Positions 6,710-42,221 of a stretch of 64,000 bases of DNA are shown piece after piece. The stretch is taken from contig JASKMD010000018.1 of NCBI GenBank assembly GCA_030144725.1, positions 1,394,099 through 1,458,098 of the forward strand. Reading direction: 5' to 3'. Numbering within the stretch: the stretch's first letter is position 1; every line of letters starts with the position of its first letter. The notes beneath the pieces are model-generated. The model ran no database searches and had not been told where the DNA came from. It saw only the letters and a program-made list of their open reading frames with translations. Source of the DNA: Haematococcus lacustris (Eukaryota > Chlorophyta > Chlorophyceae > Chlamydomonadales > Haematococcaceae). Both the position numbers and the translations under genes were made by a program.

Positions 6710-6725
6710 CACACAGGCAAATTAG
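6710..6725 (+). repeat. Left terminal inverted repeat of the giant transposon
   Basis: CACACAGGCAAATTAG, preceded by GTT (6707-6709). It pairs with the right end at 42206-42221 with one mismatch. Likely transposase recognition site. Confidence 0.85.
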
Positions 6726-6857
6726 CGCGAATATTCGACATCCTAGGGGGGTAGTTTTATGATGCGGTTCGCCTCGGATTGTCCTTGCGACTCCAACGCC
6801 ACTTGGCGCGTGTTGAAATTCTGAGTGTGTGAGCAGTTGGAGTGTAGGGACCGACAG

Positions 6858-6979
6858 TACTGTAGACGTCTACAGTACTGTAGGCATCTACAGTACTGTA
6901 GATATCTACAGTACTGTCGACATCTACAGTACTGTAGATGTCTACAGTACTGTAGATGTCTACAGTACTGTAGACAATT
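6858..6979. repeat. Left subterminal palindrome array
   Basis: About seven spaced copies of the CTACAGTACTGTAG palindrome begin roughly 150 bp inside the left TIR. The same motif fills the right subterminal region, so the arrays probably bind transposase or a regulator, as subterminal repeats do in EnSpm. The binding role is inference. Confidence 0.75.
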
Positions 6980-7187
6980 CTTAACTATTTACAGAGCTCA
7001 TATGTTTTAAATCGTTCCTGTGATTTTCATGGTGACTTTGCTTGTCTTCGCGACTAGTACAAGCACATCGGATTCGGCGGCTGATAGTTGTGGTTATGAG
7101 ATGTGGTCATGAGATGTTTGAATGAATCATGTTGTGTGCTGGGGCGCAAAGTAATAGACAAAGGAGCTTGTAAGAGCCTATTCATAA

Positions 7188-7192
7188 TTACA
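7188..7192 (-). promoter_or_regulatory. Candidate polyadenylation signal TGTAA of the transposase gene
   Basis: TGTAA on the minus strand, 62 bases after the transposase stop codon. TGTAA is the usual signal in volvocine algae, and the spacing is plausible. Confidence 0.5.
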
Positions 7193-7253
7193 CCATGGTT
7201 GACAGTCATACAAGGTCATTTAACATCTCTGTCACTCATGTAGCCCCTGTTGC

Positions 7254-10200
7254 CTACTTGTCCATGGATTTGTTGCTGAATGGTACAAAGTACATGTCCC
7301 CCCCACCCTCCTTGTGCGGGAAGAAGGGCACCAGCAGGTGTGTGAGCTTAGCCCCATCTACCGCAAACCAGTCGTGAGGGCCAGCTGCTGAGTAAAGAGT
7401 GGTTGGCTGCCGGCCAACAAGTGAGCGCTGCTGGCGCACCGGTGTGGGAAGGGGAGCCTGGTAAAGCTGCCTCTGGCTTGGCTTGCGCCCTGAACGTCTG
7501 ACCTGCGTTGGGGCCTCGTCCTCCTGGCTGTCTGACCCATGGCCATCACCTTGTGTGCCTGGGGGTGCAGCTGCAGGGACTGTAGCCGGCTGCTGATCTG
7601 CTTTCTGCTTCTTGCTGCGCTGTGTAGGTCGTGAAGGCTGCTTCCTTTTTGCTGGCTCTCGCTTCTTTGCTGTTGCTGAGTCGTCCTCAGCAAGGGGTGT
7701 GCCTCGTGCTACCGCTAATGTGTCTAGCTGTGGAACAGGGGTGGTGCGGTACAGGCGTGCAATGGCCAGGCGCAGGAAAACACCCTGCTTGTGTGGGTGC
7801 TCCACCCGCACCCAGAACTGGATATGTGATGCATATGGTACCTCACCCCACACAGCAACCAACTCATGCTCCCCTGTGTATTGTCCAGGTATGATCTGAT
7901 GGTACTGGTTCATTACCCAGTTGCTGTTACGCACATGGACCTTGGTGTAGTCCACACTGTGCATGACCTGCCCGTTGCAGTCTGCACGCTTGAAGTACTT
8001 GACACGCTGGGGCACAGCTGGGCTGACACCACTGACAGGATCTGCAAACACTGCATTGAAGTCTGCATCGCTCCACACTGTGCTCTCGGACAAGAACTCC
8101 TCCCTGAACTTGATGCATGCCTGGCGCACCCACTCCTCCCCACCATTCGGGCACTCATTGTAACCACACCCCAAGAGCTGGCACATCTCCTCCGCAGGCA
8201 TAGGCTTCGCATCCCTGACACCCTTGCTGCTCTTCCGCCTTTGCTGGCCAGCTGCCTTGCTGTCCTCCTTATCCTCCTCACCCTCCTCATCCACTCCCTC
8301 ACCCTCCTGGTCTTCAGCCCATGCATCCTTCCCATGCTTATGCCTGTGTTTGTTGAACCACTGCTGCATCTGACGGCTCAACCGCTCCCGCAAACACATG
8401 GCCAAGGTCACCTGCAGCCCGGCAGCATGGGAGCCACTGAAGTGCTTGGCACGCTGCATAGCGCGCTCCACGAAGAACTCAGTCACCCAGCAAGCTCGAC
8501 CCCGCTCACGCTCTTGATCAGGCAACCTGCATGAGCAGCACATGCACACCATATCGAATGCATCAGTGTATTTGTGACCTGTTATAAGCAATGGCAAATG
8601 GTTGGTGGAGCATGGTGGCACGCACCGGCAGCACAACATATGGAGGTTGCTGGAGAACAAGGAGGTCGGCACGCCCTCTCCCAGCCAGTCCTTCTCAGCC
8701 AGTAGGTAGGCATAGGTGTGAATGGCGTCAGCGCCCTCGTCCATACCCGCCTTCAGCCGGGCCTCATACAGTGCCTCAGCCTCAGGTGTCATGTCCGGGC
8801 TCCGCTGCGGATCTCCCTCTGTAGGGCATGCAACACAGGACCATGTAATACATCATGTTGTACACCCATGGTGCAGCTGTCGCGGCAACCTTGCTTACCT
8901 GATGTCAAGTAGTGCAGCACAGCCTTCACCAACGCCTTCCAAATGGGCAGGTGCCCGTTCTCCACTGTCACGATGTCACGAAACACGTACTGCCAGCCAT
9001 AACGGACGAAGTGCATGAAGTCATCCATGATCCACCCCCTGCAGCAAGATGACTCCATCAGTGTTGTGAAGGGGGAGTTGTATACATGTGTCATTTGACC
9101 CTGACAGTACTGTAGAACCCTACAGTACTGTAGAACCCTACAGTACTGTAGACCCCTACAGTACTGTAGACCCCTACAGTACTGTAGAACCCTACAGTAC
9201 TGTAGACCCCTACAGTACTGTAGACCCCTACAGTACTGTAGACCCCAATGAGTACTGTAGACCCCTACAGTACTGTAGACCCCTACAGTACTGTAGACCC
9301 CTACAGTACTGTAGACCCCTACAGTACTGTAGACATCTACAGTACTGTAGGGGTCTACAGTACTGTAGACCTCTACAGTACTGTAGACCCCTACAGTACT
9401 GTCGACCCCTACAGTACTGTAGACCCCTACAGTACTGTAGACCCCTACAGTACTGTAGACCCCTACAGTACTGTAGACCCCTACAGTACTGTAGACCCCT
9501 ACAGTACTGTAGAATCTATGAGTACTGTAGACCCCTACAGTACTGTAGACCCCTACAGTACTGTAGACCCCTACAGTACTGTAGACCCCTACAGTACTGT
9601 AGACCCCTACAGTACTGTAGACCCCTACAGTACTGTAGACCCCTACAGTACTGTAGACCCCTACAGTACTGTAGACCCCTACAGTACTGTAGACCCCTAC
9701 GGTACTGTAGACCCCTACAGTACTGTAGACCCCTACAGTACTGTAGACCCCTACAGTACTGTAGACCCCTACAGTACTGTAGACCCCTACAGTACTGTAG
9801 AATCTATGAGTACTGTAGACCCCTACAGTACTGTAGACCCCTACAGTACTGTAGAATCTATGAGTACTGTAGACCCCTACAGTACTGTAGACCCCTACAG
9901 TACTGTAGACCCCTACAGTACTGTAGACCCCTACAGTACTGTAGACCCCTACAGTACTGTAGACCCCTACAGTACTGTAGACCCCTACAGTACTGTAGAC
10001 CCCTACAGTACTGTAGACCCCTACAGTACTGTAGACCCCTACAGTACTGTAGACCCCTACAGTACTGTAGACCCCTACAGTACTGTAGACCCCTACAGTA
10101 CTGTAGACCCCTACAGTACTGTAGACCCCTACAGTACTGTAGACCCCTACAGTACTGTAGACCCCTACAGTACTGTAGACCCCTACAGTACTGTAGACCC

Positions 10201-13200
10201 CTACAGTACTGTAGAATCTATGAGTACTGTAGACCCCTACAGTACTGTAGACCCCTACAGTACTGTAGACCCCTACAGTACTGTAGACCCCTACAGTACT
10301 GTAGACCCCTACAGTACTGTAGACCCCTACAGTACTGTAGACCCCTACGGTACTGTAGAATCTATGAGTACTGTAGACCCCTACAGTACTGTAGACCCCT
10401 ACAGTACTGTAGACCCCTACAGTACTGTAGACCCCTACAGTACTGTAGACCCCTACAGTACTGTAGACCCCTACAGTACTGTAGACCCCTACAGTACTGT
10501 AGACCCCTACGGTACTGTAGACCCCTACAGTACTGTAGACCCCTACGGTACTGTAGACCCCTACAGTACTGTAGACCCCTACGGTACTGTAGACCCCTAC
10601 AGTACTGTAGACCCCTACGGTACTGTAGACCCCTACAGTACTGTAGACCCCTACAGTACTGTAGACCCCTACAGTACTGTAGACCCCTACAGTACTGTAG
10701 ACCCCTACAGTACTGTAGACCCCTACAGTACTGTAGACCCCTACAGTACTGTAGACCCCTACAGTACTGTAGACCCCTACAGTACTGTAGACCCCTACAG
10801 TACTGTAGACCCCTACAGTACTGTAGACCCCTACAGTACTGTAGAATCTATGAGTACTGTAGACCCCTACAGTACTGTAGACCCCTACAGTACTGTAGAC
10901 CCCTACAGTACTGTAGACCCCTACAGTACTGTAGACCCCTACAGTACTGTAGACCCCTACAGTACTGTAGACCCTAATGAGTACCTCGAAGACCCCTACA
11001 GTACTGTAGACCCCTACAGTACTGTAGACACCTAATGTACAACCCATGCCCTACTCAGATCAGCTCACTCACGTGAAATCCTCTGTGTGCTTCAGCTGTC
11101 GTCCAAATGTCACAGGGAAGTGCATGTCCTTGAAGCGCGTGATCATTGTCTCACGTGGACTCTCCTTGTCGTTGCCTTGGCGCTTGCTGAAAGGCCCGCT
11201 CTTGGAGAACAGCCACTGCATATGGTGCTTCACAACACCAAACAGAAAGGCGTGCGCGATGGGCACCACGTGCAACCACTTGGCCTGCACGTACTTGAGG
11301 TACTTGGTCACTATAGGCCGGCCCCAACACCCGATGTCGGTGCCCTTCACCCAGCCACCCTCTACGGCTGCGCCACGAGTCTGCATGTCCTCCTCAGACA
11401 AACGATTCCGACGTTCCCACATCCAAGCCTCAAACCACTCGCCCACCACACCCCTGCCCACCACGGGTTCACCTTCTTGCCCCTGGCCACCAGCAGCTCC
11501 TCCACCAACCTCGCCACCATCACCCTCTGCCTCTCCATCTTGCCCTCCAACCCGATCAGCATGCCCACCCTGATCACGTTGTTGGCCTACCGGTGCAGCA
11601 CCCTGGCCTGCACCCTGGCCAGCGCCCTGACCTCCACCCTGGCCTGCACCCTGGCTTCTCAATCCTGCTCGCCCAGAGCCACCAACCACACTAGCCGCCC
11701 TGACCGTATAGCGACCACCTCTCCCCACCCCAGCGCCTACACCAGCATCTTCTTCAGGAGGGGGCGGAGGGTAGCGGCTCAGGTCTGGTACCAACACCTC
11801 CACCGGCAGCCAGTAACCCTTGGGGTGCACACCACCGTCACCAGGGGTCCGCAGCCAGCACCAGGCACAGTTCATGCAAGCACCATGGCCAAGACTCTTC
11901 ATCAAACACATCCTGCAAAGCACCGTGCATCATTGGCCTTACATCCAAGTTGTTGGTGGTGTATATGGTCCCCCTACTCACCGAGCCGGAGTGTCCGCCA
12001 CCACGCTGGCCAGCATGGGGTACAGCCGGATCTCGTGGGCCACATTGGCACCACGGTAGCCTTTGGGGGCGTGCAGATAGACCCAGCTGTCTCGCATGCT
12101 CTCATCCAGGGAGTCACGCAGGTCCACCAGCAACTGCCAAACACATAAGCAGCCTGTTAGTCAGGTATCATGCTGACGTGGTTTTGGAACATGTGCCCCT
12201 GCTGGTTCACCTGGTTCACGTAGCCCTCCACAAACTTGGACTTGTCAGCACCCAAGATCACACCCACAATAGCCCAGGTCTCGTCCTTGCTCATGTACTT
12301 GGTGGGCACATCCATGACCTGGGGTGGACACGCTTCATATGTATGGGCTAGAGCTAGGGCTAGGGATAGGGATAGGGATAGGGATAGGGATAGGGCTAGG
12401 GCTAGGGCTAGGGCTAGGGCTAGGGCTAGGGCTAGGGATAGGGATAGGGATAGGGATAGGGATAGGGATAGGGCTAGGGATAGGGATAGGGATAGGGGTA
12501 TGGATAGGGATATGGCTAGGGCTAGGGCTAGGGCTAGGGCTAGGGCTAGGGATAGGGACAGGGCTAGGGATAGGGATATGGATAGGGACAGGGATAGGGA
12601 TAGGGATAGGGATAGGGCTAGGGGTAGGGCTAGGGGTAGGGATAGGGCTAGGGATAGGGATAGGGATAGGGATAGGGCTAGGGCTAGGGCTAGGGCTAGG
12701 GCTAGGGATAGGGCTAGGGACAGGGATAGGGATAGGGATAGGGATAGGGATAGGGATAGGGATAGGGCTAGGGATAGGGATAGGGCTATCTGTGTCTGGC
12801 GTGTTTGCTCCTTATGCAAATACCTGCAGAACAATAATCCCGACGGACTGTGTCTCAGTGATCTTTACCCAATCGATGCCCAGGCTCAGGCGCACTGCGT
12901 ACGGGTTGTCGAACTGGTCAGCTCCCACGCTGTCTCTCATGAACTTGCCAGCCTCACCTGTGCCCATCCAGCAATACGTTCAGTGTGTTCTATTCAACCA
13001 CGTTGCATCTGATCAACGTTCACTCACTGGCATAGAAAGATCCTGGGCCCTTGTCCACGTCCCTGTTGAACCACATTTGCATCCCGGGGCTGAGGAGGAT
13101 GGTATTCAAGGTCTCCTCCAGTTCCAGGTAGAAAAATTCTGCTCGGGGCTGCAGGTTATCGCGGTCACCTATAACATCATGCATGTGCACCGCTTGTCAC

Positions 13201-15275
13201 ACCACATCCTTGCCCTCTGTGGTGTTCACCCTTGACCCTAACCCTTGTTAACCCTGACCCTTATCTCACCCTCAAAGCGTCTGAGCTTGCACTTGGGGCA
13301 CACCTCCTTCTCGTGCTCTTTCCACTGATCTCTGCAACACATGTCACAAAGTCATGGGTTTACCCCTAACCCTACGCATCTTTTGTCATGGCAACATATT
13401 CAACCTGTGGCAAAGGACATGGGTCGTCGGTCATGGGTACTTGGTTAAACTTAGCACCCACCGGGGCAGGTAGCCAAAGGTGTGCCCACAGGGACGCTCA
13501 GCCGTGCCGTTGCAGACATGGAGCCGACTCTCTGGCTGGTCAAAGGTCTCCAATGTCTGTCGGTACAAGTACGGAGTGCTGGGGTGGTTGTGAGGCGTAC
13601 GTAGCTCCCCTTGTCCGAACATGTAGCCTAGCTCCAACAGGTGCGCCTTCAGCACCTTGGCGTCAGGAGTGATGGCTGTCATCCAGTTGTGGATCCTCTC
13701 CAAGTTGTCATACGTAGTGGTCATAGGGTGCCATGCAGACACAGGCTCACTCAAGCGCCGCTGGATGTCTGTTGTCCTGCAACGCCTCCTCCCTCTCTCC
13801 AGACGGGGGCCCCTGTCTCTGCTGTCCCCCCTCCTCCTACTGTTACGAGGGCGGCCAACACTACGGCCACGGCCTCGACCTCTGCTCACACTGCCGCCTC
13901 TGCTGCCTCGTCCACCCCTGGCAACACCTTCACCTCGCTGTGCATGTTGGGCGTGTCTTCCCCTGATGCCTCTGTTGTTGCAGTCACCACTGTCGTCAGA
14001 GCTGCCGCCTGTGTCCATCGACTGCTCAGATACCACCTCGGACTCTGACTGGGAGGTGGTGGTGGAGGTTTGGGAGGTGGTGGAGGATGCATGCGGGCAG
14101 CCCATGGAGCATCTGGCACCAACACAACCACCCCTCGCATTGCCGCTGGGTGGGCTGCCTGTTGCATTGCCACTGGGTGGGCTGCCTGTTGCATGGGGGG
14201 AGAAGGGAAGGGGCGGGGGAGGGGAGGGAGGGGAGGGGGGATGTACAGGGCTCACTCCATGTGATGACATGCCGCGATCTGCCGTGGGTACACTGACTCC
14301 GGCTCTCTCTGACTGCTCCGCCTCATCCGTCTCCATGGCGTCATCGTCACCCAACCAACCCTCTTCCCGCTTGCTCCTTGACTCTACCCCTGGCCGGAGA
14401 ACAAGGTCGTCCTCATAGTGGCGGGCCAGCAGCCGCCCTGCATCTCCTGGGCCCAGTGGCGCCTCCTCTGGCCGGAGAACAAGGTCGTCCTCATAGTGGC
14501 GGGCCAGCAGTCGCCCTGCATCTCCTGGGCCCAGTGGCGCCTCCTCTGGCCGGAGAACAAGGTCGTCCTCATAGTGGCGGGCCAGCAGCCGCCCTGCATC
14601 TCCTGGGCCCAGTGGCGCCTCCTCTGGCCGGAGAACAAGGTCGTCCTCATAGTGGCGGGCCAGCAGTCGCCCTGCATCTCCTGGGCCCAGTGGCACCTCC
14701 TCTGGCCGATGAACATGGTCGTCCTTGCATGGACGGGTCAGCAGGAGCCTTGCATCTCCTGGGCGCAGCGGCTCTCCATGTGACAGACGGCGAAGGACGG
14801 CTGATAGAGGCGTGGGTGTGGGATGTGGAGGTTCAGGAGCTGTTGGGGGAGGTGTGGGGGGGTTAGGTTGTCTTGGTGTCCTACCGGGACGTTGTGGCGG
14901 CGTTGGGGAGCGGGGAGTTGGGTGGGATGAATTAGGTGGTAGTGTTGGTACCGGGCGGCCTAGGAAGGTGGTGGTGGGTGACCGTGGCGGCCACACCTGG
15001 AAGGGAGGTGGCCAATCTTTTGGAGGACGCGCTGGCCTTAGCGGTGTGGGCGGGAGGCCTGTGAGCGGTGAGGGTGAGGGAGGGGGCCAAGCTGGTGGGG
15101 AACGAGCTGGCTCGGGGGGTGTGGGGGGCCGTGTCAGGGGACTAGGCGAGGGAGGAGGCCACACTGGTTTGGGACGGGGTGGGGAACGGGGTGGGTGTGA
15201 GATCCCCGCTTGGGATTGTTGTCGAGCATGCTGCAATCGCTGAAGTACAAAGGGGAAATTGGCCCTCGTCGGCAA
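7254..15275 (-). CDS. CACTA/KDZ-type (tnp2-like) transposase, ten-exon model
   Basis: Likely catalyses excision and integration of the giant element. Exons in transcription order: up to 15275-13462, 13331-13270, 13168-13028, 12957-12824, 12318-12211, 12133-11982, 11912-11073, 9038-8899, 8818-8626 and 8526-7254. All junctions are GT-AG and keep frame. Exon 1 is Pro/Arg-rich with a 26-residue repeat, ending in a zinc-binding pattern (HVCNGTAERPCGH) completed in exon 2 by VCPKCKLRRF. Exon 4 holds SLGIDWVKI (first acidic residue of the RNase H-like fold). Exon 6 ends in VVADTPAR, followed by a GHGACMNCAWC motif in exon 7, which also has HAFLFGVVKHH. Exons 9-10 carry NLHMLCCRLPDQE and EFFVERAMQRAK, hallmarks of this family. 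The C-terminus is basic and disordered. The start is uncertain: an ATG at 15476-15478 may open an upstream exon. No stop or frameshift was found, so it may be functional. Confidence 0.85.
9102..11034. repeat. Large palindrome array inside a transposase intron
   Basis: About 107 copies of an 18-bp unit built on the palindrome CTACAGTACTGTAG with spacer ACCC. Variant spacers (ATCTATG) and a few CTACGGTACTG variants occur. The array fills most of the intron between transposase exons 7 and 8 (9039-11072). It produces long shadow frames on both strands with no coding meaning. Confidence 0.95.
12347..12787. repeat. Telomere-like hexanucleotide microsatellite in a transposase intron
   Basis: Runs of GGGATA and GGGCTA on the plus strand, so CCCTAT/CCCTAG in the sense of the transposase transcript. 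It lies in the intron between exons 4 and 5 (12319-12823). Confidence 0.9.
14393..14745 (-). repeat. 78-bp coding tandem repeat in transposase exon 1
   Basis: About 4.5 copies of a 78-bp (26-codon) unit encode repeats around RLLARHYEDDLVLRPEE. The period keeps the reading frame, and the units differ by few bases, indicating recent expansion in the N-terminal low-complexity part. Confidence 0.85.
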
Positions 15276-15525: not shown

Positions 15526-18500
15526 CACTCGTGGAGAATAAGGCCGAGTCGGCGATTTTAGGTAAGGGGGACTGCAGATAGCCCTTTCAAAGGCCGTCCC
15601 ATCGCCATATGTTTCATGATTTTAATCGACGTGGTTGGGCTGTAATCGGCCTTTAGCTGAAGCGGTCAAACCTTGTGCAGGGTTTCGCCAAACCGTGCAC
15701 AGGGTTTCAACTGGCTCAGCCCCTAGGTGGCCGTCAAGCCAGTTCCAGACCTTGTGCAGCGTTTCATAGACCATGTGCAGGGTTTCACAAACCGTGCACA
15801 GGGTTTTAAAGACCGTGCACAGGGTTTCATAGACCGTGCACAAGGTTTGGTGTGGCTCAGTTCCTAGGCGCTTTTAACCGTGTGCACGGTTTCGCTGACC
15901 GTGTGCAGGGTTTCATAGACCGTGCACAGGGTTTCAAAGACCTAGTGCAGGGTTTCATAGACCGTGCACAGGGTTTGGTGTGGCTCAGTTCCTAGGCGTT
16001 TCTGACCGTGTGCACGGTTTCGCTGACCGTGTGCAGGGTTTCGCTGACCGTGTGCAGGGTTTCGCTAACCTTGCACAGGGTTTCAAAGACCTAGTGCAGG
16101 GTTTCATAGACCGTGCACAGGGTATCAAAGCATGAGTGTATAGTCAGCATTGGCTTACAGCCTACATGCCTGCTGACATCTGCTGCCACATGTGGCCTCC
16201 TACATCAATGTAACATCACACGGCATCACCATTAGAGTCATGCCTATCACACAAACTGACTCATGGCTAACAACACACTGAAACTGGTGCTGCCAGGCAT
16301 GCACCACATGACACAAGCCACTAGACTCAGGGCTGCACACGCCATGCACCTCATAGCAACCTCATGCACCTCATAGCATCTCATAGCAACTGACACACTG
16401 CTACACACGCCATGCATTGCTCGTCTCATACCAGTTGACTAATGGCTACTCAAACTATATACTCATGACGAACAGCAGCAAACACATGGCTAACGAAGCC
16501 ATGCACCTCATGACACATGGCAGCTGACTCAGGGCTACACATGCCTTGCCACACCTGCCACATGGCAGCTGTCTCATTGCTTGGGATAAGGGAAGGGCTG
16601 CAGCTGCCTCTTGGCTGATCATGCTTTGCACCACCTGCCCCATAGCAGCTGGCTCCTTGTTGCTCTCTTAAGGCTCCTTGTTGCTCATGCCTTGCCACAC
16701 CTGCCACATGGCAGCTGGCTCATGGCTACACACGTCATGTACCACCTCATGGCTGCCACTCCTAGCTGCCGCTCCAGGCTGCTGCTCCGGGCTGCTGCCC
16801 TGGGCTGCTGGCCTGGGAGGTGGTGGTGGAAGTCGGGTAAGGTGAGGGTAAGGTAGGGGAGGGGCTGCAGCGTAGCGCAGGAGGGGGGAAGCGGAGCGAC
16901 ACGGGTGAGTCTGTGGGTGAGGGGAAGGACAAGGGAAGGGTGTGACCATTAGACCTGCAGCAAACAAGGGGCATGCTAGCCATCAGGCTCGGTGCCAAGA
17001 GCCACAAATCTGCTTCATGCTGGCCACTCACCGTTTGCTGGGGTGGGGTGGGGTGGGGTGGGGTGGGGTGGGGTGGGGTGGGGTGGGGTGGGGTGGGGTG
17101 GGGTGGGGTGGGGTGGGGTGGGGTGGGGTGGGGTGGGGTGGGGTGGGGTGGGGTGGGGTGGGGTGGGGTGGGGTGGGGTGGGGTGGGGTGGGGTGGGGTG
17201 GGGTGGGGTGGGGTGGGGTGGGGTGGGGTGGGGTGGGGTGGGATAGGGGAGGGGTGGGGTGGGCAAGGGGTGGGCGTGTGACCGTCACACCTGCAAGCAA
17301 CAAGGGGCGTGCTCACGGTAAGGCTGCGCAATGGGGGCCACTGATGTGCAAGGGGCTGGCCACTCACTGTTATCTCCATGTGCCATTGCTGACTCCTTGC
17401 TGCCTCCTTGTTGGCTGCTGCTCCTCCCTCCTGGCTGTGCCTCCTGGCTGTGGAGGGCATGGGCCTCTTGGCCTTGGCCAACCACTTGCCTTGCCCATGC
17501 CTCCTGGCTGCCACTCCTGGCTGCCGCTCCTAGCTGCTGCTCCTGGCTGCCGCTCCTGGCTGCTCCTCTTGGCTGCTCCTCTTGGTTGCGCCTCCTGGGG
17601 AGTGGTGGGTCTGGCAGGTGGTGCCACCAAGGGTGAGGGTGAGGGTGTGCACTCCAAGCCTGGGTAAGGGTGAGGGAGAGGAGGAGGAGGGGGGTGTGAG
17701 GGAAGGAGGTGAGGGGGAGGAGGTGAGGGGGAGGAGGGAGAAGAGGCATGTTGCTCCTTGCTGCCGCTCTGGCTGCTGAGCTGACCATCACACCTGCAGT
17801 AAACATGGGGCGTGCTAGCGGTTAGGCTGGGTACAAGGGGTCACTTATGTGCGTGGGGCTAGCCACTCACTGCTTGCTCCATGCGGTCCCTTGATCATTC
17901 CTTATGGGGAGGGAAGAGGGAGGAGGAGGGAAGAGGGAAGAGGGAGGAGGGAGGAGGGTACGCTTTTGCTCTTGTCTGCCGCCCTGGATGCCGCTACTTG
18001 TTGCCGTTGTGGTTGCTCTTTCTGGCTGATGGAAGGTGCCACTGCGCCTTGGCACCGAACCTGCTCAAGCACATGACACATGCCACGCTCCAACCCCGCG
18101 GTCGCACCTCAGAGTCGCATCTATGCATCGCACCTTTGCAAGCTACCTTTGTGCCGTTCGCCCTCAACTCTGTGCTTGATCACAAGTACCCTATTCCTTT
18201 CGCTGATCGCTAATGGCTGCGAAACCGAGCTGCATGCTGGCCTCTTGGCTGACGACTGATGGCTGCGAAGGCTAGCTGGACCGCATTTCATGGCCGGCTG
18301 CGAGGCTGCGCATTTGGGCGCTGTCGATGTCGCCGCTGCTGAGTTTGGGATGGACGTGTCGCGTGTTGCGTGTTGCTGCATTACTGTGGGCTTTGCGAGG
18401 TCGACATGGTTTCCTCTCATGGCGCCTCGCGACCTCAAGTCACATGCACCCTGCAAGTCACATGCACAAAGCGGGGTTGGCGAAACCCTGCACAGCGTCT

Positions 18501-19258
18501 TTGAATGACTTAGGAGAAATCAACACAAGGAACGAAACCCCGCACTGGGTTAGCGAAACCCTGCACGACGTCTGTGTTGACTTAGGCGAAATCAATGCTT
18601 TGATCGAGACCCTGCACAAGGCCAGCGAAACCCTGCACTAGGTTAACGAAACCCTGCACAAGGTCTGAGTTGACTTAGAAAAAATCAATGCTTTGAGCGA
18701 GACCCTGCACAAGGTCAACGAAACCCTGCACTAGGTTAGCGAAACCCTGCACAAGGTCAGGGTTGACTTAGAAAAAATCAATGCTTGGATCGAAACCCTG
18801 CACAAGGTCGGCAAAACCCTGCACACGGTCTTGAAACCCTGCACAAGGTTTGCGAAACCCTGCACAAGGTCAAGTGAAACCCTGCACAAGGTTTCAAAGG
18901 CTAATTGTGCCTCAAAGAGAGAATAAACCGTGTGCAGGGTTTCAGTAAACTGGCCCCCATTTCTTACTGGCTTTGACTTTGCACATGCTACCTAGTAGGT
19001 TGTGCTTCTATTCTGACGTCTGACAACTCCTCATACTCAGAAATATTAAAAAGTCACTTCAGTCAGTTAGCACCATCTCCCTTAGCCAAATTCGGGGTGA
19101 GGGCCCAGCTCATGGTCCAGCAGCTTCGCAATGACCAAGAATTTCACTTTGGCCCAAGGGAGTCTTCTCCTCCACTAGGTCACAGCAGCCTACATGCCAA
19201 GTCTCAGACCTCAACTCGCAAGTTTGCCGAGCCAGCCAGCCCTTATTTGCCAGGAGTG
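15526..19258. mobile_element. 3.7-kb CACTA-like non-autonomous element, copy 1
   Basis: Ends are CACTCGTGGAGAATAAGG (15526-15543) and, inverted, CACTCCTGGCAAATAAGG (19241-19258). Fifteen of 18 positions match. The left subterminal region (15660-16130) repeats GTGCACAGGGTTTC words. The right one (18480-18960) repeats the inverse, GAAACCCTGCACAAGG. This arrangement is typical of EnSpm/CACTA. Flanking duplication is CG, or GCG if the last base is counted. No transposase is visible inside. The element sits between the divergently transcribed transposase and gene B. The inner TIR resembles that of the giant element (CACTC..GGCAAATAA versus CACTCAGGCAAATTA), so the two families are related. Confidence 0.85.
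17041..17240. repeat. GGGGT microsatellite, copy 1
   Basis: About 40 pure GGGGT units inside CACTA-like copy 1. Copy 2 has about 32, which accounts for the 40-bp length difference between the two elements. Confidence 0.95.
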
Positions 19259-26204: not shown

Positions 26205-26320
26205 AGGGGTCTACAGTACTGTAGGGGTCTACAGTACTATAGGGGTTTACAGTACTGTAGGGTTGTACAGTACTGTAGGGGTCTACAGTACTGTAGGAGT
26301 CTACAGTACTGTAGGGGTCT
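26205..26320. repeat. Short internal palindrome array
   Basis: About seven copies of the CTACAGTACTGTAG motif lie between gene D and gene E, the same motif as the subterminal arrays. Confidence 0.85.
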
Positions 26321-29500: not shown

Positions 29501-32500
29501 GCGCTGTCGATGTCGCCGCTGCTGAGTTTGGGATGGACGTGTCGCGTGTTGCGTGTTGCTGCATTACTGTGGGCTTTGCGAGGTCGACATGGTTTCCTCT
29601 CATGGCGCCTCGCGACCTCAAGTCACATGCACCCTGCAAGTCACATGCACAAAGCGGGGTTGGCGAAACCCTGCACAGCGTCTTTGAATGACTTAGGAGA
29701 AATCAACACAAGGAACGAAACCCCGCACTGGGTTAGCGAAACCCTGCACGACGTCTGTGTTGACTTAGGCGAAATCAATGCTTTGATCGAGACCCTGCAC
29801 AAGGCCAGCGAAACCCTGCACTAGGTTAACGAAACCCTGCACAAGGTCTGAGTTGACTTAGAAAAAATCAATGCTTTGAGCGAGACCCTGCACAAGGTCA
29901 ACGAAACCCTGCACTAGGTTAGCGAAACCCTGCACAAGGTCAGGGTTGACTTAGAAAAAATCAATGCTTGGATCGAAACCCTGCACAAGGTCGGCAAAAC
30001 CCTGCACACGGTCTTGAAACCCTGCACAAGGTTTGCGAAACCCTGCACAAGGTCAAGTGAAACCCTGCACAAGGTTTCAAAGGCTAATTGTGCCTCAAAG
30101 AGAGAATAAACCGTGTGCAGGGTTTCAGTAAACTGGCCCCCATTTCTTACTGGCTTTGACTTTGCACATGCTACCTAGTAGGTTGTGCTTCTATTCTGAC
30201 GTCTGACAACTCCTCATACTCAGAAATATTAAAAAGTCACTTCAGTCAGTTAGCACCATCTCCCTTAGCCAAATTCGGGGTGAGGGCCCAGCTCATGGTC
30301 CAGCAGCTTCGCAATGACCAAGAATTTCACTTTGGCCCAAGGGAGTCTTCTCCTCCACTAGGTCACAGCAGCCTACATGCCAAGTCTCAGACCTCAACTC
30401 GCAAGTTTGCCGAGCCAGCCAGCCCTTATTTGCCAGGAGTGATATTGACATGACATGCATTGACAGCATCGGCAATATGTACTACAGGAGCCTGGGCCAT
30501 ACCTCAGCCCAGGGGTGCCAGACTGGCTCAAGGACGTGGTGAATGGCATGGCCATCGGCTGCATGGCCCTTTTCCACGTCTCGGCTTACCTTCCAACGCA
30601 GGAGGAGCTGACAGCCTTGCAGGACAGGTGTGACTCATGCACCATGTGACATACACAGCGCACCATGCACAGGGCGCATCACGCACCATGCACCTGCTGG
30701 GCCTGCAGGATTGCCAGAAACATCAACAGCGACAACACCGACAGCTCAGCCACAGCTGGGAAACAGATGGAGACCGCCCGCATGCGTTACAAAGACATGG
30801 AAAAGCGCCTGCGGGGCACGTACACGGATGAGGTACCACCGATGTTACAGCCCTTCCGCACCCTGGCTGAATGGTACTGGGCCTGGCGCAGTGAGTAACA
30901 CGTCTTGCGTATTGGTTGAGCAGACAGCATGTTTGATGTTGCATGTTGTATGTCGCATGCTGTTAGAAGCATGCCTTCAGCCTACCTAATGCTCAGAGTG
31001 TTGTGTGATGCATCAGGCGACAAGAAGAACGTGGACGTTGGCGAGAAGCAACTAGCAAATGTACATCAAGGGTTGATGAACTTGGTGCACCCCTTCCATG
31101 ACGTGGGAAACTCCCAAGTAAGGTCATGAACGACATGCATGTGCGAATGGGCTGTAAGAGCGTCATGCATGTCAGCAGTACTTGATGTCCACCTTGCCAT
31201 GAATGTCGCCTGGTGCATACAGGCGACCTATGCCCGCATTGTCAAGAGTAGAGCAATCAAGCCGGGCTACCACAGCCCAACCACCGCCAGCCCTCGCCTG
31301 CAGGATACCCAGCTGCAGCATTCCCAGCCAGCTTCGGCCTTGGTGAGGGCATAGCAATTGTTTGTGTGGCATTGGTACCTCTACTCCATCATATGGTGAT
31401 GCTAGGCTTAGGCAGCTGTTGTGCGATGTGCCATGTGCAGGCATCAGGCACCCAATCACTGCCAGCGCATGAGGCTGAGGCCCAACCCATGCAGGTTGAA
31501 GTAGCCCAGGGTAGGGTGGTAAGCACATCTGCATCCCGATGCAACACCTACATCATGTGTGCCATGCAGGCATATCGCAACAGGCCAGTCTTGGGTGACC
31601 TATGTACCGCCTACAACATGGGTAGGAAGCGTGCGTTGCGTGACGTGCTAGAGCTCCTGGGCTTGTACGCCTTCAACGTGTTGGGGGACGGCAACTGCGC
31701 ATACCGAGCCGCGGCAATGATTGCTGGTTTATGCAGTATCACAGTGAGTGTCATGGCCAGGGTAATGGGGCTCGTCACATCAGAGCGTACTGCCCTGACG
31801 GTGTCATACCCACACACAGCGCACTGCCCTGAATGCCATACCCAGTCACATGACATCACATGGCTGTAGGCTGATGTGTATGCAAGAAAGCAAAGTGCAT
31901 GTAGTGTATACATGTGGTACTGATGCTTTTATGTGCAGGGGCACAAAGACCTACGCCAGGCCTGCTTTGATGTTGGCATGAATATGGTCAAGCATTTCGG
32001 GAACCAGGCTGCCCCCCGGAGCAGCACCCTAGCGATGATGCTGGCCAATGCAGACACTGACAGATACGAGGTGGACCCTGTGACTGGACAGTCAACAATT
32101 GTCAGCATCACGCTGGAAGAGCACCTGCAGACAGACATCCAGCAACCCAGGGCATGGAGTGGCTTCACCTCCATGGTGCTCATGTCCGCAGTCCTTGGAG
32201 TCGAACTGCAGGTTCTAGACGAGGGCAATGGGCAGTGGTATGTTACTCCCGTGGATGCCCGAGGCTTGCTCACCCGTGAGGAGAGCAAAGCTGTCATGCC
32301 AGCAAACTTCCCATGCATGGACGAAGGTGAGACTTGTTACTTGGTGCGAGTTGATGACAACCATTTCCTGGCTTTAGGGCGTCAGGACGGCAGGCGATTG
32401 GCCACCAATGAGGTGGACCTCAAGGACATCGCTGTCCAGGTGAGCAGGACTAATGGCGGCGAAGATGAGATGACATGGTAGGACACGTTGTAGGTGGGCT

Positions 32501-34249: not shown

Positions 34250-34282
<33 letters not shown>

Positions 34283-37200
34283 CGCAGCTGGTAGGTATTG
34301 AGGCCTCACATCACCCGGATCACATCACCCGGATACACGGTGTCCGAAAAATGCAATTAGCACGTGACATCCTAATGCATGTATTGAGATATGGGTCATA
34401 CCTGTAGATTTGCTTTGTTTCTGCCTTGCAGAATGCGCACAACCGTACACTGCTGGAGCTGTCACCCATGTTACATCTAAAGAAGCTGAGGTAAGGCCAT
34501 ATGGGTCGGCGCTAGTCACCTATGTCCACACATGATCTTGACATAATTTGGTTGATAACCTAATACCTAAAGCCTATACCCTAATAGACAAATACTCTAA
34601 ACATCAATGCAGGCGCAGCCTGGAGGTCTTGCAGCACCCCACCCATCTCCAAGTGACGCTACCGGACCAGACAAGCATCAGCAGCAACCAGCACGTCAAC
34701 TCAATAACATTCTCAATGTAAGTTTACCATGCATGAATTGATGAAGCTAAGCTCAATGAAAACGACAGCACCTTACCCCTTACCAAGATAAGTAACTTCA
34801 TTTCCTCCGTGCCATGTGCCATTGTGAAGGCCTCATTGGCTGCGTTGCCACCCGGTGGAGGCATGTTCTGGCAGCAAGGACCTGATGGGAACAATCGACC
34901 CAAAACCCTTGACATAAATGTGCTGAGGACGGCCTTTGGGCGCATGAAGGTATGGGCTAATACGTACAATCACAGCATGGGGGTACAACCTGAGTGTAGA
35001 CTTCTTATTTATTTGCCAATGTAGTCCTTCTTCAACCGCCGGGACAGACGTGATGGCCATTGTCTAGCCCCAGACGTCGGCCATGAGGTGATGAAAGGAT
35101 CGGTATATCCCGATGGTGTATTCAAACGCCGCCTAACGAAGTACGAGGTGTTTTTCTTACCCATGGGGGGCCGCCTGATCGCTGTGTACCCGAGGCATGA
35201 CATATTCGTGATCTTCTGCCCCAGGGGAGAGGTAAATGACTTCCAATCCTGTCACCAATCTAAGGTATACGGTCAGTACATGAATCAACACACAAATTAT
35301 CTTGGATGAGATGCCGCAGGGTCTTACAACAGAGGAGGAGTCTAACCTGGTAAAGTTTTTGAATGTGAACGTCAAACAAACAGAATGGAAGGTCATTGAT
35401 GGGACGTGCCCACAGCAAACGGATGACTGGAGTGATGAGCTGCGGTTGTTAATCCACACGGAATACTTATGGCGCCGAAGCTTCAGGTGAACAACTAGGA
35501 CGACATGCCTTCAACGCTGTCTGCATGCTATCAAACGTCATTAGGGTTAGTCTAATCTAGCATGCAAAAAAAAGACCACAGACACCATGATGCACGTAGG
35601 CGTAACAGTGTGCAAACCGGCATTCGTTATGATGCCAAGCGGATGTTAGCTCGGCAGCGATTACTGCAATGTACCCTGGAGACTGAGGGAGAGTGGTGCT
35701 CTTTGGTACGTTCCTCAACCCTAGTAAATTAGATGTATGGGTTGCATTACCACATGTGATATGATAAGACTAACCGCTCTTGTGTTACCATGCAGATCGA
35801 TGTGCACCCCAAGTGGAAGAACAGGGCACCGAGTGACATGGCTGACCCATTGTCGGTAAGTTATCCACACCCAATGCATGGTAAGGCAGAAGGTGTTCAG
35901 GCAGGTGGACCACATGGCACATGGCGATTGTCCGCGCTGCAGGAGAGTGAGGTTCCATCACCAGTGCCATCTCCGCCCATGTCCATCGTGTCACCTGAGT
36001 CTCCTCCCTCACCGTCACCACCACCATTCCACGACCCTGGGCACACCCCCCCACTATCCTCTGGGCTGGACAATGATACTGAATCTCAGCCATCACCGGG
36101 GCCCCTTCCCCTTCCCAGCGGTGAGCCCCGAACCCTAGGCCATATATAGAAATGGAGTTCACCATGCATTGTCAAATGGTTACTTCACAACATAAGCATC
36201 TGTGGTCAATTAATGACGGGAAATGAGGGGAAATATGAACCGAGGTAGAAGCATGTGAGATTGGGTTATCACAGATTTGCACAGATCGGACCATCATGCT
36301 TCTTTGTACATGACACCACAGGTCACCAAGCTGTACTGTCTGAGTCAACAAGCGCGGGGCGCTCGATGTCTTTCCCTTCTCTCCCCATCCCAGCCGCTAC
36401 CCCCCATCCCCTCATCAAGCCATTCAGCGCACCTCCAGCCCATTCCCCAGCGCCGGCAACAGACACAGCAATAGCATCAGCCCCTGAGCCAGCCCCTGCC
36501 CCTGCCCCTGCCCCTGCCCCTGCCCCTGCCCCTGCCCCAGCAGCCCCTGCCCCTGCCCCAGAAGCCCTTGCCCCAGCAGCCCCTACCCCAGCAACCCCTG
36601 CCCCAGCAGCCCCTGCCCTTGGCCCAGCAGCCCCTACCCCAGCAACCCCTGCCCCTGCCCCTGGCCCTGCTCCTGGCCCTGCCCCTGGCCAGGCCCCAGG
36701 CCATGACCCTGCCCCTGCCCCTGCCCCTGCCCCTGCCCCTGCCCCTGCCCCAGCAGCCCCTGGCCCTGCCCCTGCCCCTGCCCCTGCCCCTGCCCCTGCC
36801 CCTGCCCCTGCCCCTGCCCCAGCAGCCCCTGCCCCTGCCCCAGCAGCCCCTGCCCCAGCAGCCCCTGCCCCAGCAGCACCTACCCCGGCAGCCCCTATCC
36901 CTGCCACAGCGGCCCCTGCCCCAGCAGCACCGGCCCCAGCAGCCCCTGCCCTTGGCCCAGCAGCCCCTACCCCAGCAACCCCTGCCACTGCCCCAGCAGC
37001 CCCTGCCCCACCAGCCCCTGCTCCCGCAGCCCCTGCCACTGCCCCTGCCCCTACACCAGCAGCCCCTGTCCCTGCCCCAGCGGCCCCTGCCCCAGCAGCA
37101 CCTGCCCCAGCAGCACCGGACCCAGCAGCCTCTGCATCAGCAGCCCCTGCCCCAGAAGCCCCTGCCCCTGCCCCAGCAGCCCCTACCCCAGCAGCCCCTG

Positions 37201-40200
37201 TCCCTGCCCCAGCGGCCCCTGCCCCAGCAGCACCAGCCCCAGCAGCACTGGCCCCAGCAGCCCCTGCCCTTGGCCCAGCAGCCCCTACCCCAGCAACCCC
37301 TGCCACTGCCCCAGCAGCCCCTGCCCCAGCAGCCCCTGCTCCAGCAGCCCCTGCCACTGCCCCTGCCCCTACCCCAGCAGCCCCTGTCCCTGCCCCAGCG
37401 GCCCCTGCCCCAGCAGCACCTGCCCCAGCAGCACCGGACCCAGCAGCCTCTGCATCAGCAGCCCCTGCCCCAGCAGCCCCTGCCCAAGCAGCCCCTGCCC
37501 TTCGCCCAGCAGCCCCTACCCCAGCCTCAGACCCTGACCCAGCAGCCCCTGCCCCTGCCCCAGCAGCACCAGACTCAGCAGCCCCTACCCCAGCCACAGC
37601 AGCCACAGAACCTGCCCCAGCAGACCCTGCCAGAGGTAAGGATGTATTTATGTATACATTACAAAAACACATGCCAATAGACCATGTCATGTTCATGCGC
37701 ACATATGATCTCACAGCAGCCCTAAGTAAGCTCTGAAATAACCCAGTCAAAGCATAACTTCACGACTTTCACATTGTATAATGTCTTGCATGCAGTTGAC
37801 GTGAACCGGCTGATAAACACGGTTCTGAAAATTGATGAGCGCCAGAACCGGGAGGTCGCGTACGGTCAGGCTGCATGGCAGGCGGTATCTCAGTTGCAGA
37901 AGGCTGTAAGCGATGCAATGGTGGAACTGCATCAACGGCAGCGCGCGGCATTTCAGCAGCAGCAGCAGGATCTTGAGCGGCAGCTGAGGCAGCATAATGA
38001 GACAGTCCTCAGGCTGCAGCAGCAGTTACAGGCATCTGAGAAGGCAAGGGCCCAGATGCAGAAGGAGATGCAGCAGCAGGAGACGAAGCGTCAGCAGCAG
38101 ATGGAGCAGCTGTCAGCCAGTGTAGCTTCCTTGTTAAAGGTAAGATGATCATGCATCAGTAAGACTAGGGAAAATAAACGGCCACGAATTAGGCAACCGC
38201 CAAGTGACCATTAAATACACCATTTGCAGAACATGACCACATTTGTCAATAACATTCAATGAGCATCATGGCACATGCAGGGAACAGGGCACCAGCAGCA
38301 TGCTGTTGCTCAAGCGCCGCCTCCACAGCCAGCTGCTACCGCCACAAAGAAGGCCCAAGCACAAGCCAGGACCACTGCCACTCGTCAGCAGGTAGGCTAT
38401 ATTATCTCAAAGAGACGGAAGAGACAACAATTACAAACCCACATGTGTTACTTGAACTGTATTGCAGAAGGCAAGTCCACCAACTGCTGAAGCTGCAACG
38501 ACAAGCATGGGACAGAAGCGAGGCAGAAGTGGCCAACAAGTGGACAACAGCAAGAAGGTGATAGGAGTCAACCCCTAGTACATCCCTTACCACATAACTC
38601 GGAAACCTAACCGTACCCCAATCCTGCCCACTAGTCCAATCCCTAGCCCTAGCCCTAGCCCTAGCCCTAGCCCTAGCCCTAGCCCTAGCCCTAGCCCTAG
38701 CCCTAGCCCTAGCCCTAGCCTTAGCCCTAGCCCTAGCCCTAGCCCTAGCCCTAACCCTAGCCCTAGCCCTAGCCCTAGCCCTAACCCTAACCCAACCTCA
38801 TCCCCACGTCCATGCCTATCCCTATCCCTATCCCTAGCCCTAGCCCTAGCCCTAGCCCTATCGCTATCCCTAGCCCTATCCCTATCCCTATCCCTATCCC
38901 TATCCCTATCCCTATCCCTATCCCTATCCCTATCCCTATCCCTATCCCTATCCCTTGCCCTAGCCCTAGCCCTAACCCTAGCCCTAACCATACACCATCC
39001 CTTGTAACAATGAGGTACGTGGCGTGTGACTGTAGGCTACTGTTTGGCGGCCGGCTGTGTACGCCAATGGCAATGCTGTGGTGAAAAAGTTCACCCCTGA
39101 GCAGGCTGATCAGTGGCGTGAGGCAGTGCTGGAGATGGGTGTTGCCATGATCAGCCTCCCAGGCCACCTCATCCCAACGTCTCAGCTGGAGTGGGCATTA
39201 CAGCTCCTCAGCCTGGTGTTTGGCTACGCCATCTTCAACGACATCCCCCTCACCGAGAGTCGCGGTTGGCCGGTCATAAGCGAAGGGGATCTCGATGTGC
39301 GCTACAGCACAGGCCAGCGCCTGCAGATGCCTTTCACTACGGCAAATGCGGATGGCAGCCTGCCTGATGATGTCTCCATGTCGGGGTGTTGGACAGCCAG
39401 GTCCTTGCGCATCATCAGAAAGGACCAAGCCATGGCAGCCCAGCAGGATGCAGCAGGCGAAGCTGCATGCACCAGGCTGAAGCAGTATGCCACAGCTGTC
39501 CGCCTTGCCCGCCCTTACCTCAGGCAGCTACAGCAGCATGCCTCACAGCTTTCGCAGGTCACCCTCAGGGGGGGTACAGTGCTCACCAATGACACTATGC
39601 ATGGACGTGACGTCGATGCAGAGGACATGGCTTTGACCAAGGCCACAGGTTTGGTGGCAGCCCAGGCGTTGCATGTGGACGTCAACCCAGACCCGTCCCT
39701 CTCCATCCCCCCCCCCACAGCAGCAGCAGCTGCAGCAGCAGCAGCACCCCAGACCAGAAGCCCTCCCTCACATGACGTCCCCTCTACCTCAGCCCCTGCT
39801 GCGTCTTCAGCAGCAACACCCACAGCCCCCCCAAGGATCATTTGGGGGCGAGATGGTCTAGTGATGATCATCGCTGTTGGAGAGACGCAGGTGCTGGTCA
39901 GCCCAGGCAGCCATGTGCAGGTGTTGAAGGTGGAGAAGAAGCACAAGGGAGAGATAACGGCGAAAGTCCTGAAGACGGCCATGAAGGCCATGCCCAAGAT
40001 GCAGGTCTACAGGGTGACACTACAGCCGGGTGAGGTGCTTGGGATGCGCGGTTACACGGTCCATGCAGGGGATTGGGGCCTGCCAGAGAAAGCTTCCACC
40101 AGGGTGCACTTGTATGGCAGCGAGGGCTACATCAACAATGCCACCTGTTTTCTGTCAATGTTGGATGTGGAGTTCGTGCACAAATGCCAGCCCACCAGTC

Positions 40201-40559
40201 CTCCTCAGCGTGGTGAGCAACTTATCCACTGGCCACCGGGGTTAGGGCCATTGCATGGGGGTGATTATGTGCAGCCTCAGCCCTATGAGCGCCCTGCACG
40301 AGCACCGGTGGACACATTATGGGCCTCAGACTGGGCTTTGAGTGATGAGGACGTACAAGCAGAGTTGAACAGTCTGTTGGTCCATTGGGATGAGGCCATG
40401 GCTGCAGAGGCAGCAGAGGAAGCAGAGAAGGAGAAGAAGAAGGGAAAAAAGGTTGTAGTGGCAGAGGTGACGGAGGAGGCACAGGAAACAGATGAGGCAG
40501 GGGGCAAAGAGGCAGGGGCCGAGGAGGCGAGGAAGAAGAAGCAAGTGAGAAAAAGGTAG
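26552..40559 (+). CDS. Cargo gene E: giant OTU-protease / 2-oxoglutarate dioxygenase-like multidomain protein
   Basis: Exons from 30488, all in frame: 30488-30627, 30709-30890, 31017-31117, 31223-31342, 31441-31518, 31570-31743, 31939-32439, 32515-32602, 32683-34290, 34432-34490, 34613-34717, 34788-34949, 35025-35231, 35320-35486, 35600-35705, 35796-35855, 35943-36120, 36322-37635, 37796-38139, 38281-38391, 38468-38557 and 39036-40559. About 2473 codons. A first exon, 26552-26710, is likely; its intron then holds CACTA-like copy 2. OTU domain: DGNC with catalytic Cys at 31696-31698, and DNHF with His at 32362-32364. Next come two Ala/Pro-rich blocks, a coiled coil (37796-38139) and a C-terminal double-stranded beta-helix with HVD (39672-39680), His (40062-40064) and Arg (40101-40103), the HxD...H...R pattern of 2OG/Fe(II) oxygenases. 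The join at 38557/39036 is inferred; if it is wrong there are two genes, the first ending at 38578. The substrate is unknown. Confidence 0.6.
26749..30441. mobile_element. 3.7-kb CACTA-like non-autonomous element, copy 2
   Basis: Same element as 15526-19258 and nearly identical base for base. It is 40 bp shorter because it has about eight fewer GGGGT units. The flanking duplication is ATA (26746-26748 and 30442-30444), the 3-bp size expected for CACTA elements. It lies upstream of the first secure exon of gene E and probably within that gene's first intron, or else it separates gene E from its original start. Confidence 0.9.
28263..28423. repeat. GGGGT microsatellite, copy 2
   Basis: About 32 pure units inside CACTA-like copy 2. 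Confidence 0.95.
38636..38993. repeat. Telomere-like hexanucleotide microsatellite in a gene E intron
   Basis: CCCTAG followed by CCCTAT and a few CCCTAA units on the sense strand of gene E, filling the proposed intron 38558-39035. The transposase intron at 12319-12823 has the same two words in its own sense orientation. Confidence 0.9.
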
Positions 40560-40562
40560 ATG

Positions 40563-40567
40563 TGTAA
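40563..40567 (+). promoter_or_regulatory. Candidate polyadenylation signal TGTAA of gene E
   Basis: TGTAA lies four bases after the gene E stop codon, the position expected for a very short 3' untranslated region. Confidence 0.4.
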
Positions 40568-40667
40568 CACGAATGACGTTATTTAATGTGTGAAAATCCA
40601 AATGTGTTAAACATGTTCGTGATTCCGGCCTATTTAGATTCAAAAAACACCAGGTCCAGATATCTAC

Positions 40668-42085
40668 AATAATGTAGGTGCCTACAGTACTGTAGATGTT
40701 AACAGTACTGTAGGTGTCTACAGTACTGTAGGTGTCTACAGTACAGTGGACATCTACAGTACTGTAAGTGCACCCACGTGATACCCCGGGGTACCTTGAG
40801 TACTGTAGATGTCTACAGTACTGTAGATGTCTACAGTACTGTATGGGTCTACAGTACTGTCTGTGCACGCGGCGAGGTACTCCGACAGTACTGTAGATAC
40901 CTACAGTACTGTAAGTGCACCCGCGTGGTACCCCGGGGTACCTCGAGTACTGTAGATGTCTACAGTACTGTAGACACATACAGTACTGTATACACCTACA
41001 GTACTGTAGACATCTACAGTACTGTAGACATCTACAGTACTGTAGACATCTACAGTACTGTAATTGCACCCGCGTGGTACCCCGGGGTACCTTGAGTACT
41101 GTAGATGTCTACAGTACTGTAGATGTATACAGTACTGTATGTGTCTACAGTACTGTAGGGTTCTACAGTACTGTAGACATCTACAGTACTGTAAGTGCAC
41201 CCGCGTGGTACCCCGGGGTACCTCGAGTACTGTAGATGTCTACAGTACTGTAGAACCCTACAGTACTGTAGGTGTCTACAGTACTGTCGGTGTCTACAGT
41301 ACTGTAGACATCTACAGTACTGTAAGTGCACCCGCGTGGTACCCCGGGGTACCTCGAGTACTGTAGATGTCTACAGTACTGTAGACCCCTACAGTACTGT
41401 AGGTGTCTACAGTACTGTCGGTGTCTACAGTACTGTAGACATCTACAGTACTGTAGACATCTACAGTACTGTAGACATCTACAGTACTGTAGACTTCTAC
41501 AGTACTGTAATTGCACCCGCGTGGTACCCCGGGGTACCTTGAGTACTGTAGATGTCTACAGTACTGTAGATGTATACAGTACTGTATGTGTCTACAGTAC
41601 TGTAGGGTTCTACAGTACTGTAGACATCTACAGTACTGTAAGTGCACCCGCGTGGTACCCCGGGGTACCTCGAGTACTGTAGATGTCTACAGTACTGTAG
41701 AACCCTACAGTACTGTAGGTGTCTACAGTACTGTCGGTGTCTACAGTACTGTAAGGGTCTACAGTACTGTAGACATCTACAGTACTGTAAGTGCACCCGC
41801 GTGGTACCCCGGGGTACCTCGAGTACTGTAGATGTCTACAGTACTGTAGACCCCTACAGTACTGTAGGTGTCTACAGTACTGTTGGTGTCTACAGTACTG
41901 TAAGGGTCTACAGTACTGTAGACATCTACAGTACTGTAAGTGCACCCGCCTGGTACCCCAGGGTAGTTTGAGTACTGTAGATGTCTACAGTACTGTAGAT
42001 GTCTACAGTACTGTATGGGTCTACAGTACTGTCTGTGCACGCGGCGAGGTACTCCGACAGTACTGTAGATACCTACAGTACTGTA
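40668..42085. repeat. Right subterminal palindrome array with composite units
   Basis: Dozens of CTACAGTACTGTAG palindromes. A second perfect palindrome, GGTACCCCGGGGTACC, is interspersed about every 130-185 bp (near 40782, 40928, 41078, 41210, 41340, 41524, 41655 and 41804). Together they form higher-order units beginning with GTGCACCCGCGTG. The array ends about 120 bp before the right TIR. Confidence 0.9.
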
Positions 42086-42205
42086 GCATGGCCGTATCTC
42101 ACCAACCGCGCAAAATCACGAATTTTAGTTTCAACCCCCAATCTTACAATGCCTTCATTAGACTATGTACCAAGTCCGAGGCTCTAAATCTCAAAAATGC
42201 TGTTA

Positions 42206-42221
42206 CTAATTTGCCTGAGTG
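42206..42221 (-). repeat. Right terminal inverted repeat of the giant transposon
   Basis: CACTCAGGCAAATTAG on the minus strand. It abuts the codons for GATGN of the interrupted gypsy protease. Confidence 0.85.

Follow-up and report, generated by a model that had tools for sequence, protein, structure and literature searches.

The 64,000-nucleotide window analysed here (the whole stretch of Haematococcus lacustris contig JASKMD010000018.1 under study) contains, between positions 6710 and 42221, a 35.5-kb unit with matched inverted ends, a transposase gene running leftward and, further to the right, leucine-rich-repeat (LRR)-like genes and a gene with coiled-coil and PhyH-like dioxygenase-like parts running rightward. 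The unit is very probably a giant multi-gene cut-and-paste DNA transposon of CACTA-like type that recently landed in a young gypsy retrotransposon, within its protease. Pattern matching in the window and in the genome placed its 16-bp terminal inverted repeats (TIRs) at 6710–6725 (plus strand, CACACAGGCAAATTAG) and 42206–42221 (minus strand, CACTCAGGCAAATTAG), with a single base difference between them. Comparison between copies showed that the left-end block is conserved from 6710 to about 6852 and the right-end block from about 42087. The element is flanked at both edges by TT (6708–6709 and 42222–42223), a 2-bp target site duplication. Within the window alone the TIR pattern was not significant, as 36 of 100 shuffled sequences also reached two matches with up to three mismatches; no further family ends were found in the window at the same tolerance.

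The flanks are the two parts of the gypsy target, both on the minus strand and delimited by reading frames and empty-site matches: the downstream part (protease and reverse transcriptase side) at 6021–6709 and the upstream part (gag and the start of the protease) at 42222–43944. For the empty site, 150 bp from each flank were joined with one TT kept, and the resulting query was searched in the same genome. The result showed that all 40 scored genomic matches cross the join unbroken at 98–100% identity; 38 span query positions 1–300, two span 1–298, and four are 100% identical across all 300 bp. The joined flanks keep the frame open through a motif which we take to be that of a retropepsin-like protease. 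Because all 40 matches are unbroken and four are identical, the gypsy element is young and the insertion younger still, and the two fragments are parts of one element. The exact 2-bp duplication and the identical empty sites point to one insertion event into the gypsy protease. A first-pass annotation of this DNA had described two halves of a single gypsy element with inverted repeats at both broken edges, a short target duplication and a protease frame that would be continuous after excision, and had proposed a search for the uninterrupted site elsewhere; all of these points were borne out.

The genome searched comprised 308 Mb in 597 contigs. Family ends occurred 854 + 838 times at up to one mismatch, compared with 4 + 2 for a reversed control pattern (1,692 versus 6 places for the end motif CACWCAGG), and they start with CACAC or CACTC, not CACTA. 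Eighteen complete copies were read in addition to that of the window; they were drawn from the first 100 listed ends and are biased to short copies because they were chosen for close-lying end pairs. An exact 2-bp target duplication was present in 18 of the 19 complete copies, among which L035 and L036_37 have identical flanks and are not independent; L047 has a 3-bp duplication. In all 19, palindromic 18-bp units begin 136–162 bp inside the left end, and the last of them stops 146 bp short of the right end; L031_32 has just one unit as its first left block, with the array proper starting at 629. In the window, the first subterminal array (core ACAGTACTGTAG) lies at 6854–6976, a second one with 107 unit copies at 9099–11034 between two transposase exons, an internal one at 26201–26320 and the right subterminal one at 40663–42032, in agreement with the subterminal palindrome arrays noted earlier. 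Fifteen of the 18 other copies measure 5.0–8.8 kb, and the remaining three 9.8, 16.3 and 17.8 kb. Arrays and weak low-complexity matches aside, 16 of the 18 match the window only at about 130 bp on the left and 120–135 bp on the right; L031_32 has an extra 434 bp in common with the window, and in L040 transposase segments and the beginning of the dioxygenase exon match the window at about 92%. The short copies resemble one another inside, to varying degree, with an interior unlike that of the window, as expected of non-autonomous derivatives. The first 30 loci include 12 left ends, and transposase sequence adjoins six of them. On contig C1, the copies L013/L014 and L017/L018 have identical flanks, one being 5.3 kb and the other 17.8 kb long; they reflect either duplication of a segment or haplotypes that differ by about 12.4 kb of additional sequence in one copy.

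The spliced transposase gene (7254–14251, minus strand) was delineated from splice sites read by eye and from block matches to the H. lacustris gene models P0001 and P0002. It has nine or more exons and runs toward the left end from a 5′ end at about 14.2 kb, the start being uncertain. The approximate exon blocks are 7257–8822 (with at least one more intron inside), 8900–9037, 11072–11929, 11968–12142, 12208–12321, 12818–12955, 13023–13169, 13241–13351 and 13461–13775. Comparison with P0001–P0003 showed a block-by-block match at 72–98% identity. The motifs GIDW, ADTPA and GH-C-C presumably reflect a likeness to the DDE-like Tnp2/Plavaka transposases, and since this likeness comes without a Pfam match, the transposase is labelled CACTA-like. 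When ten open reading frames (ORFs) were scanned against Pfam, none of those for the transposase, the LRR-like and OTU-like proteins or the dioxygenase had a useful match, and a PDB sequence search with the C-terminal transposase exon returned weak unrelated rows only (best E 0.28). The gene models P0001 and P0002 continue from the transposase into a C-terminal part, which by its motif resembles a Fanzor/TnpB-type nuclease and is probably a neighbouring gene.

At the other end, the right gene region (35641–40556, plus strand) comprises a P/A-rich part, a coiled coil (37726–38145, plus) and a PhyH-like dioxygenase-like part (39036–40556, plus), connected by putative exon joins. The frame 39036–40556 gave 99 other genomic match rows, some of them halves of one gene; 21 rows are near full length, stop-free and 91–94% identical, and others lie near 78% and 56%. 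All 11 other dioxygenase loci that were fetched share sequence of the coiled-coil block upstream, and right-end sequence was read within 1.5 kb at eight of the 11 (one read was cut short). The window protein carries ALHVDV, TVHAGD and TRVHLY at HxD...H...R positions, which are kept in L063–L065; we take this to be the residue pattern of PhyH-like 2-oxoglutarate dioxygenases. Its homologue P0033 matched Pfam PhyH (PF05721) at 2.4e-5, above the cut-off, whereas the window protein itself gave no Pfam match. The alignment of the two spans 390 columns with 21% identical residues (single-comparison E 3e-10) and takes in the HxD, HAG and R positions. The gene models P0015 and P0016 are without the HxD stretch, perhaps owing to a difference in splicing prediction. 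PDB sequence searches with the dioxygenase alignments returned weak unrelated rows (best E 1.9 and 0.074). A structure search gave no significant row (best E 1.8); 41 of the best 50 of its 67 rows were JmjC or PhyH-type 2-oxoglutarate enzymes, which was not taken as proof because such PDB entries are numerous. A TET/JBP identity, being without profile support, was rejected. In homologue searches with the element proteins, 34 of 35 matches were labelled H. lacustris (14/14, 4/5 and 16/16). P0017, a 406-residue dioxygenase homologue, lies on a 1.2-kb contig labelled Bosea in a metagenome bin and is probably algal DNA.

The transposase and dioxygenase genes recur together across the genome. The transposase middle exon gave at least 185 matches, of which 70 were used and weaker and fragmentary rows omitted; the 100 dioxygenase rows became 80 after 19 split halves were merged and one fragment was dropped. 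A dioxygenase was found within 60 kb of 54 of the 70 transposase matches, some of which share one dioxygenase, where about 2.2 would be expected by chance in either orientation; 48 of the 54 are divergent and six are not. Spacing in the divergent pairs ranges from 1.1 to 44.1 kb with a median of 17.3 kb. In the window it is 27.1 kb, or 19.7 kb without two nested transposons, which is not far from the family median, and the window element is no outlier among its kin. The nested elements, at 15526–19258 (3,733 bp, duplication CG, 2 bp) and 26749–30441 (3,693 bp, duplication ATA, 3 bp), are CACTA-like with CACTC...GAGTG ends of their own (CACTCGTGG...CCAGGAGTG in the first copy) and subterminal repeats of about 21 bp in inverted orientation, and differ from each other only by 40 bp of TGGGG array. 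Because the two make up 7,426 bp of the interior, the element proper is put at about 28 kb; the nested copies may have come in before or after the unit moved. The size of 35.5 kb, described at first as far above that of typical CACTA elements, stands as oversized, but 7.4 kb of it is nested transposons and it is unexceptional within the family.

Between the two genes of the window lie LRR1 (23442–24674, plus) and its tandem paralogue LRR2 (24860–26065, plus; 47% identical to LRR1), a label given by reading the sequence and without a Pfam match. A genome search with LRR1 gave 102 match rows including the window, and 101 candidates were scored. Of the 102 rows, 16 lie between a divergent pair, against 0.30 expected; they belong to 15 elements, that of the window among them and C40 contributing two rows, and all 16 are on the dioxygenase strand. 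Over the 15 rows that are not in the window, the transposase-to-LRR distance has a median of 9.3 kb (4.3–25.8) and the LRR-to-dioxygenase distance one of 9.8 kb (4.4–23.3); in the window the two distances measure 11.5 and 14.4 kb, which shrink to about 7.8 and 10.7 kb once the nested elements are subtracted. Six further LRR rows are within 20 kb of just one of the two genes. Among the V8C86DRAFT gene models, which lie on contigs other than the QJQ45 ones, P0033 contains an LRR1-like part together with the dioxygenase homologue, P0034 has an LRR1-like part joined to the right gene's coiled-coil exon, and P0020 retains the LRR1–LRR2 tandem. Contig C1 has, spread over 69 kb and in this order, a left end, a transposase, an LRR gene, a dioxygenase and a right end. 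The interior is thus not random cargo: the leftward transposase, the rightward LRR-like genes and the rightward coiled-coil/PhyH-like gene recur in this order, and by their coordinates 14 further elements have an LRR-like gene inside them at the corresponding position and on the corresponding strand. Together with the matched ends, the 2-bp duplication and the empty site, this recurrent order supports the single mobile unit proposed in the first-pass annotation. No broken genes were noticed in the window element, the intactness of each being putative, and the large multi-gene unit may be the normal working form of the element.

Several results weigh against this reading. No Pfam transposase match was obtained for the window ORFs or for nine relatives, and two AlphaFold models of the dioxygenase were poor (mean pLDDT 33.4 and 37.6). 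The 18 other complete copies, a sample biased to short ones, contain neither LRR genes nor OTU-like ORFs. The 14 other LRR-bearing elements are known by coordinates only, except for the ends on C1, and the C1 element is flanked by AT and CT with no matching duplication, has other family ends inside and has an interrupted dioxygenase. With 48 divergent pair rows and 15 elements containing an LRR row, many pairs show none, although some pairs have a dioxygenase in common and the LRR search covered 101 scored candidates; 80 of the 102 LRR rows are near neither listed gene. Moreover, the window LRR1 is 91–95% identical to 17 rows that lie more than 20 kb from any listed transposase or dioxygenase and 65–75% identical to those inside other elements. 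Given this closer similarity to the former, the two LRR genes may have passed from one element or family to another. Eight of the 80 rows are within 20 kb (2–18 kb) of the weaker, omitted transposase rows, where 0.66 would be expected for 81 rows, and more distant transposons may therefore carry LRR genes too. Tandem LRR-like pairs closely similar to that in the window occur at G000:C143:4653184–4656178 and other loci away from listed transposase and dioxygenase genes; these are possible further carriers.

The same counts bear on the possibility that a compact two-gene element of about 12 kb was filled by unrelated insertions and that its cargo is accidental. The two nested 3.7-kb elements, five pairs with just 1.1–5.6 kb from the transposase middle exon to the dioxygenase, and the presence of an LRR row inside only 15 elements compared with 48 divergent pair rows would all agree with it. 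The median pair spacing of 17.3 kb and the LRR gene in the same place and on the same strand in 14 other elements argue against it, as does the compact C143 copy. This copy had been considered as a close relative without cargo, its transposase exon being the closest to that of the window (99%), but this was rejected since its sequence, with position 13030 of the window joined to 35641 and transposase exons lost, is that of an internal-deletion derivative. An accidental cargo is accordingly improbable in our judgement. That two separate small family elements flank the region and that the gypsy halves were parted by rearrangement would be conceivable from the abundance of family ends in the genome, yet the exact 2-bp duplication, the identity of the empty site with other gypsy copies and the lack of further family ends in the window at up to three mismatches make it the least likely of the explanations weighed here. 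The first-pass annotation had also left the transposase type as CACTA/KDZ. Elements of the KDZ (Kyakuja-Dileera-Zisupton) group have an 8-bp target duplication, compared with 2 bp here, and no KDZ Pfam match was found, though the same scans give no CACTA match either. According to excerpts of PMC12730594, a dioxygenase gene occurs in some KDZ elements of fungi, but a KDZ identity for this element is very unlikely. A CACTA-like placement fits the ends, the arrays and the 2-bp duplication, and KDZ is without support.

For the CACTA-like transposon so described, a working scheme can be proposed. The transposase would bind the 18-bp palindromic subterminal arrays, bring the ends together and move the whole unit with a 2-bp stagger, and the 5–9 kb derivatives with shared ends and arrays would be moved by the same enzyme in trans. 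The PhyH-like protein may strip methyl or other marks from the DNA or chromatin of the element and so counter silencing; this anti-silencing role is an inference by analogy with the fungal dioxygenase-bearing transposons described in excerpts of PMC12730594. A more far-reaching and tentative proposal, to which we give rather low confidence, is that the element is currently active and routinely moves about 28–35 kb with a fixed accessory set including a PhyH-like dioxygenase that erases silencing marks, as an independently evolved counterpart of those fungal transposons that would parallel, in a eukaryote, the multi-gene transposons of bacteria.

The element resembles CACTA (En/Spm) transposons in its inverted ends starting with CAC, dense subterminal short repeats, very short duplication and ends-only derivatives. 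CACTA elements usually have a 3-bp target duplication; the present one differs in its 2-bp duplication, palindromic 18-bp units, length of about 28 kb, recurrent accessory genes and lack of a Pfam match. Starships, the giant fungal transposons, likewise span tens of kilobases and carry cargo genes, but they are moved by a captain tyrosine recombinase, whereas inverted ends and a transposase with presumably DDE-like motifs are found here; no recombinase match was found in the ten ORFs scanned with Pfam, a subset of the window ORFs and exons. Enlarged En/Spm families of 16–20 kb with 4–5 ORFs are described for the red alga Chondrus crispus in excerpts of PMC6431247, and like the present element they are oversized algal CACTA-type transposons with additional ORFs. 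By that description, the present element is larger, resides in a green alga and has LRR-like and PhyH-like genes. Fungal EnSpm, Plavaka and KDZ elements with a TET/JBP dioxygenase, as given in the excerpts of PMC12730594, share with it a dioxygenase-type gene of their own; a homologue of the right gene matches Pfam PhyH and not TET/JBP. No description of such an element in Haematococcus was found in the open-licence papers searched. It is an oversized CACTA-like element, above the 16–20 kb algal case as excerpted from PMC6431247, with accessory genes recurrent in position. The same excerpts state that DNA transposition becomes less effective once the cargo exceeds about 6 kb. The present unit measures about 28–35 kb, the flanks of its target have stayed identical to unbroken copies, and its gene order recurs genome-wide. 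Because a large unit was recently inserted and the order is recurrent, a single alga offers a way to test the size limit, what dense subterminal arrays contribute and what the accessory genes do.

The remaining interior contains two less well-defined coding regions. A frame at 21475–22002 (plus), upstream of the LRR genes, is part of a possible accessory gene; in the gene model P0025 a weak homologue of it is fused to the front of LRR2 (31% identity over 61 amino acids, single-comparison E 1e-8), and a tblastn search with the P0025 N-terminus at E 0.01 gave no match. ORFs at 31252–32478 (plus) are presumably OTU-protease-like from their DGNC motif and have no Pfam match. A (TAGGGA)n array at 12355–12785 lies between two transposase exons and a (CCCTAG)n array at 38641–38986 within the right gene, where it is probably intronic; these telomere-like hexamers stand in inverted orientation at mirrored positions in the two main genes. 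An Rfam search gave nothing at the gathering threshold. Outside the element, 45 copies of a 114-bp satellite occupy 447–5562 and leave the minus-strand frame 2–6028 open without a break for about 2,000 residues, with a repeat of 38 residues, and 55450–56640 consists of 238 perfect tandem copies of GCGGG.

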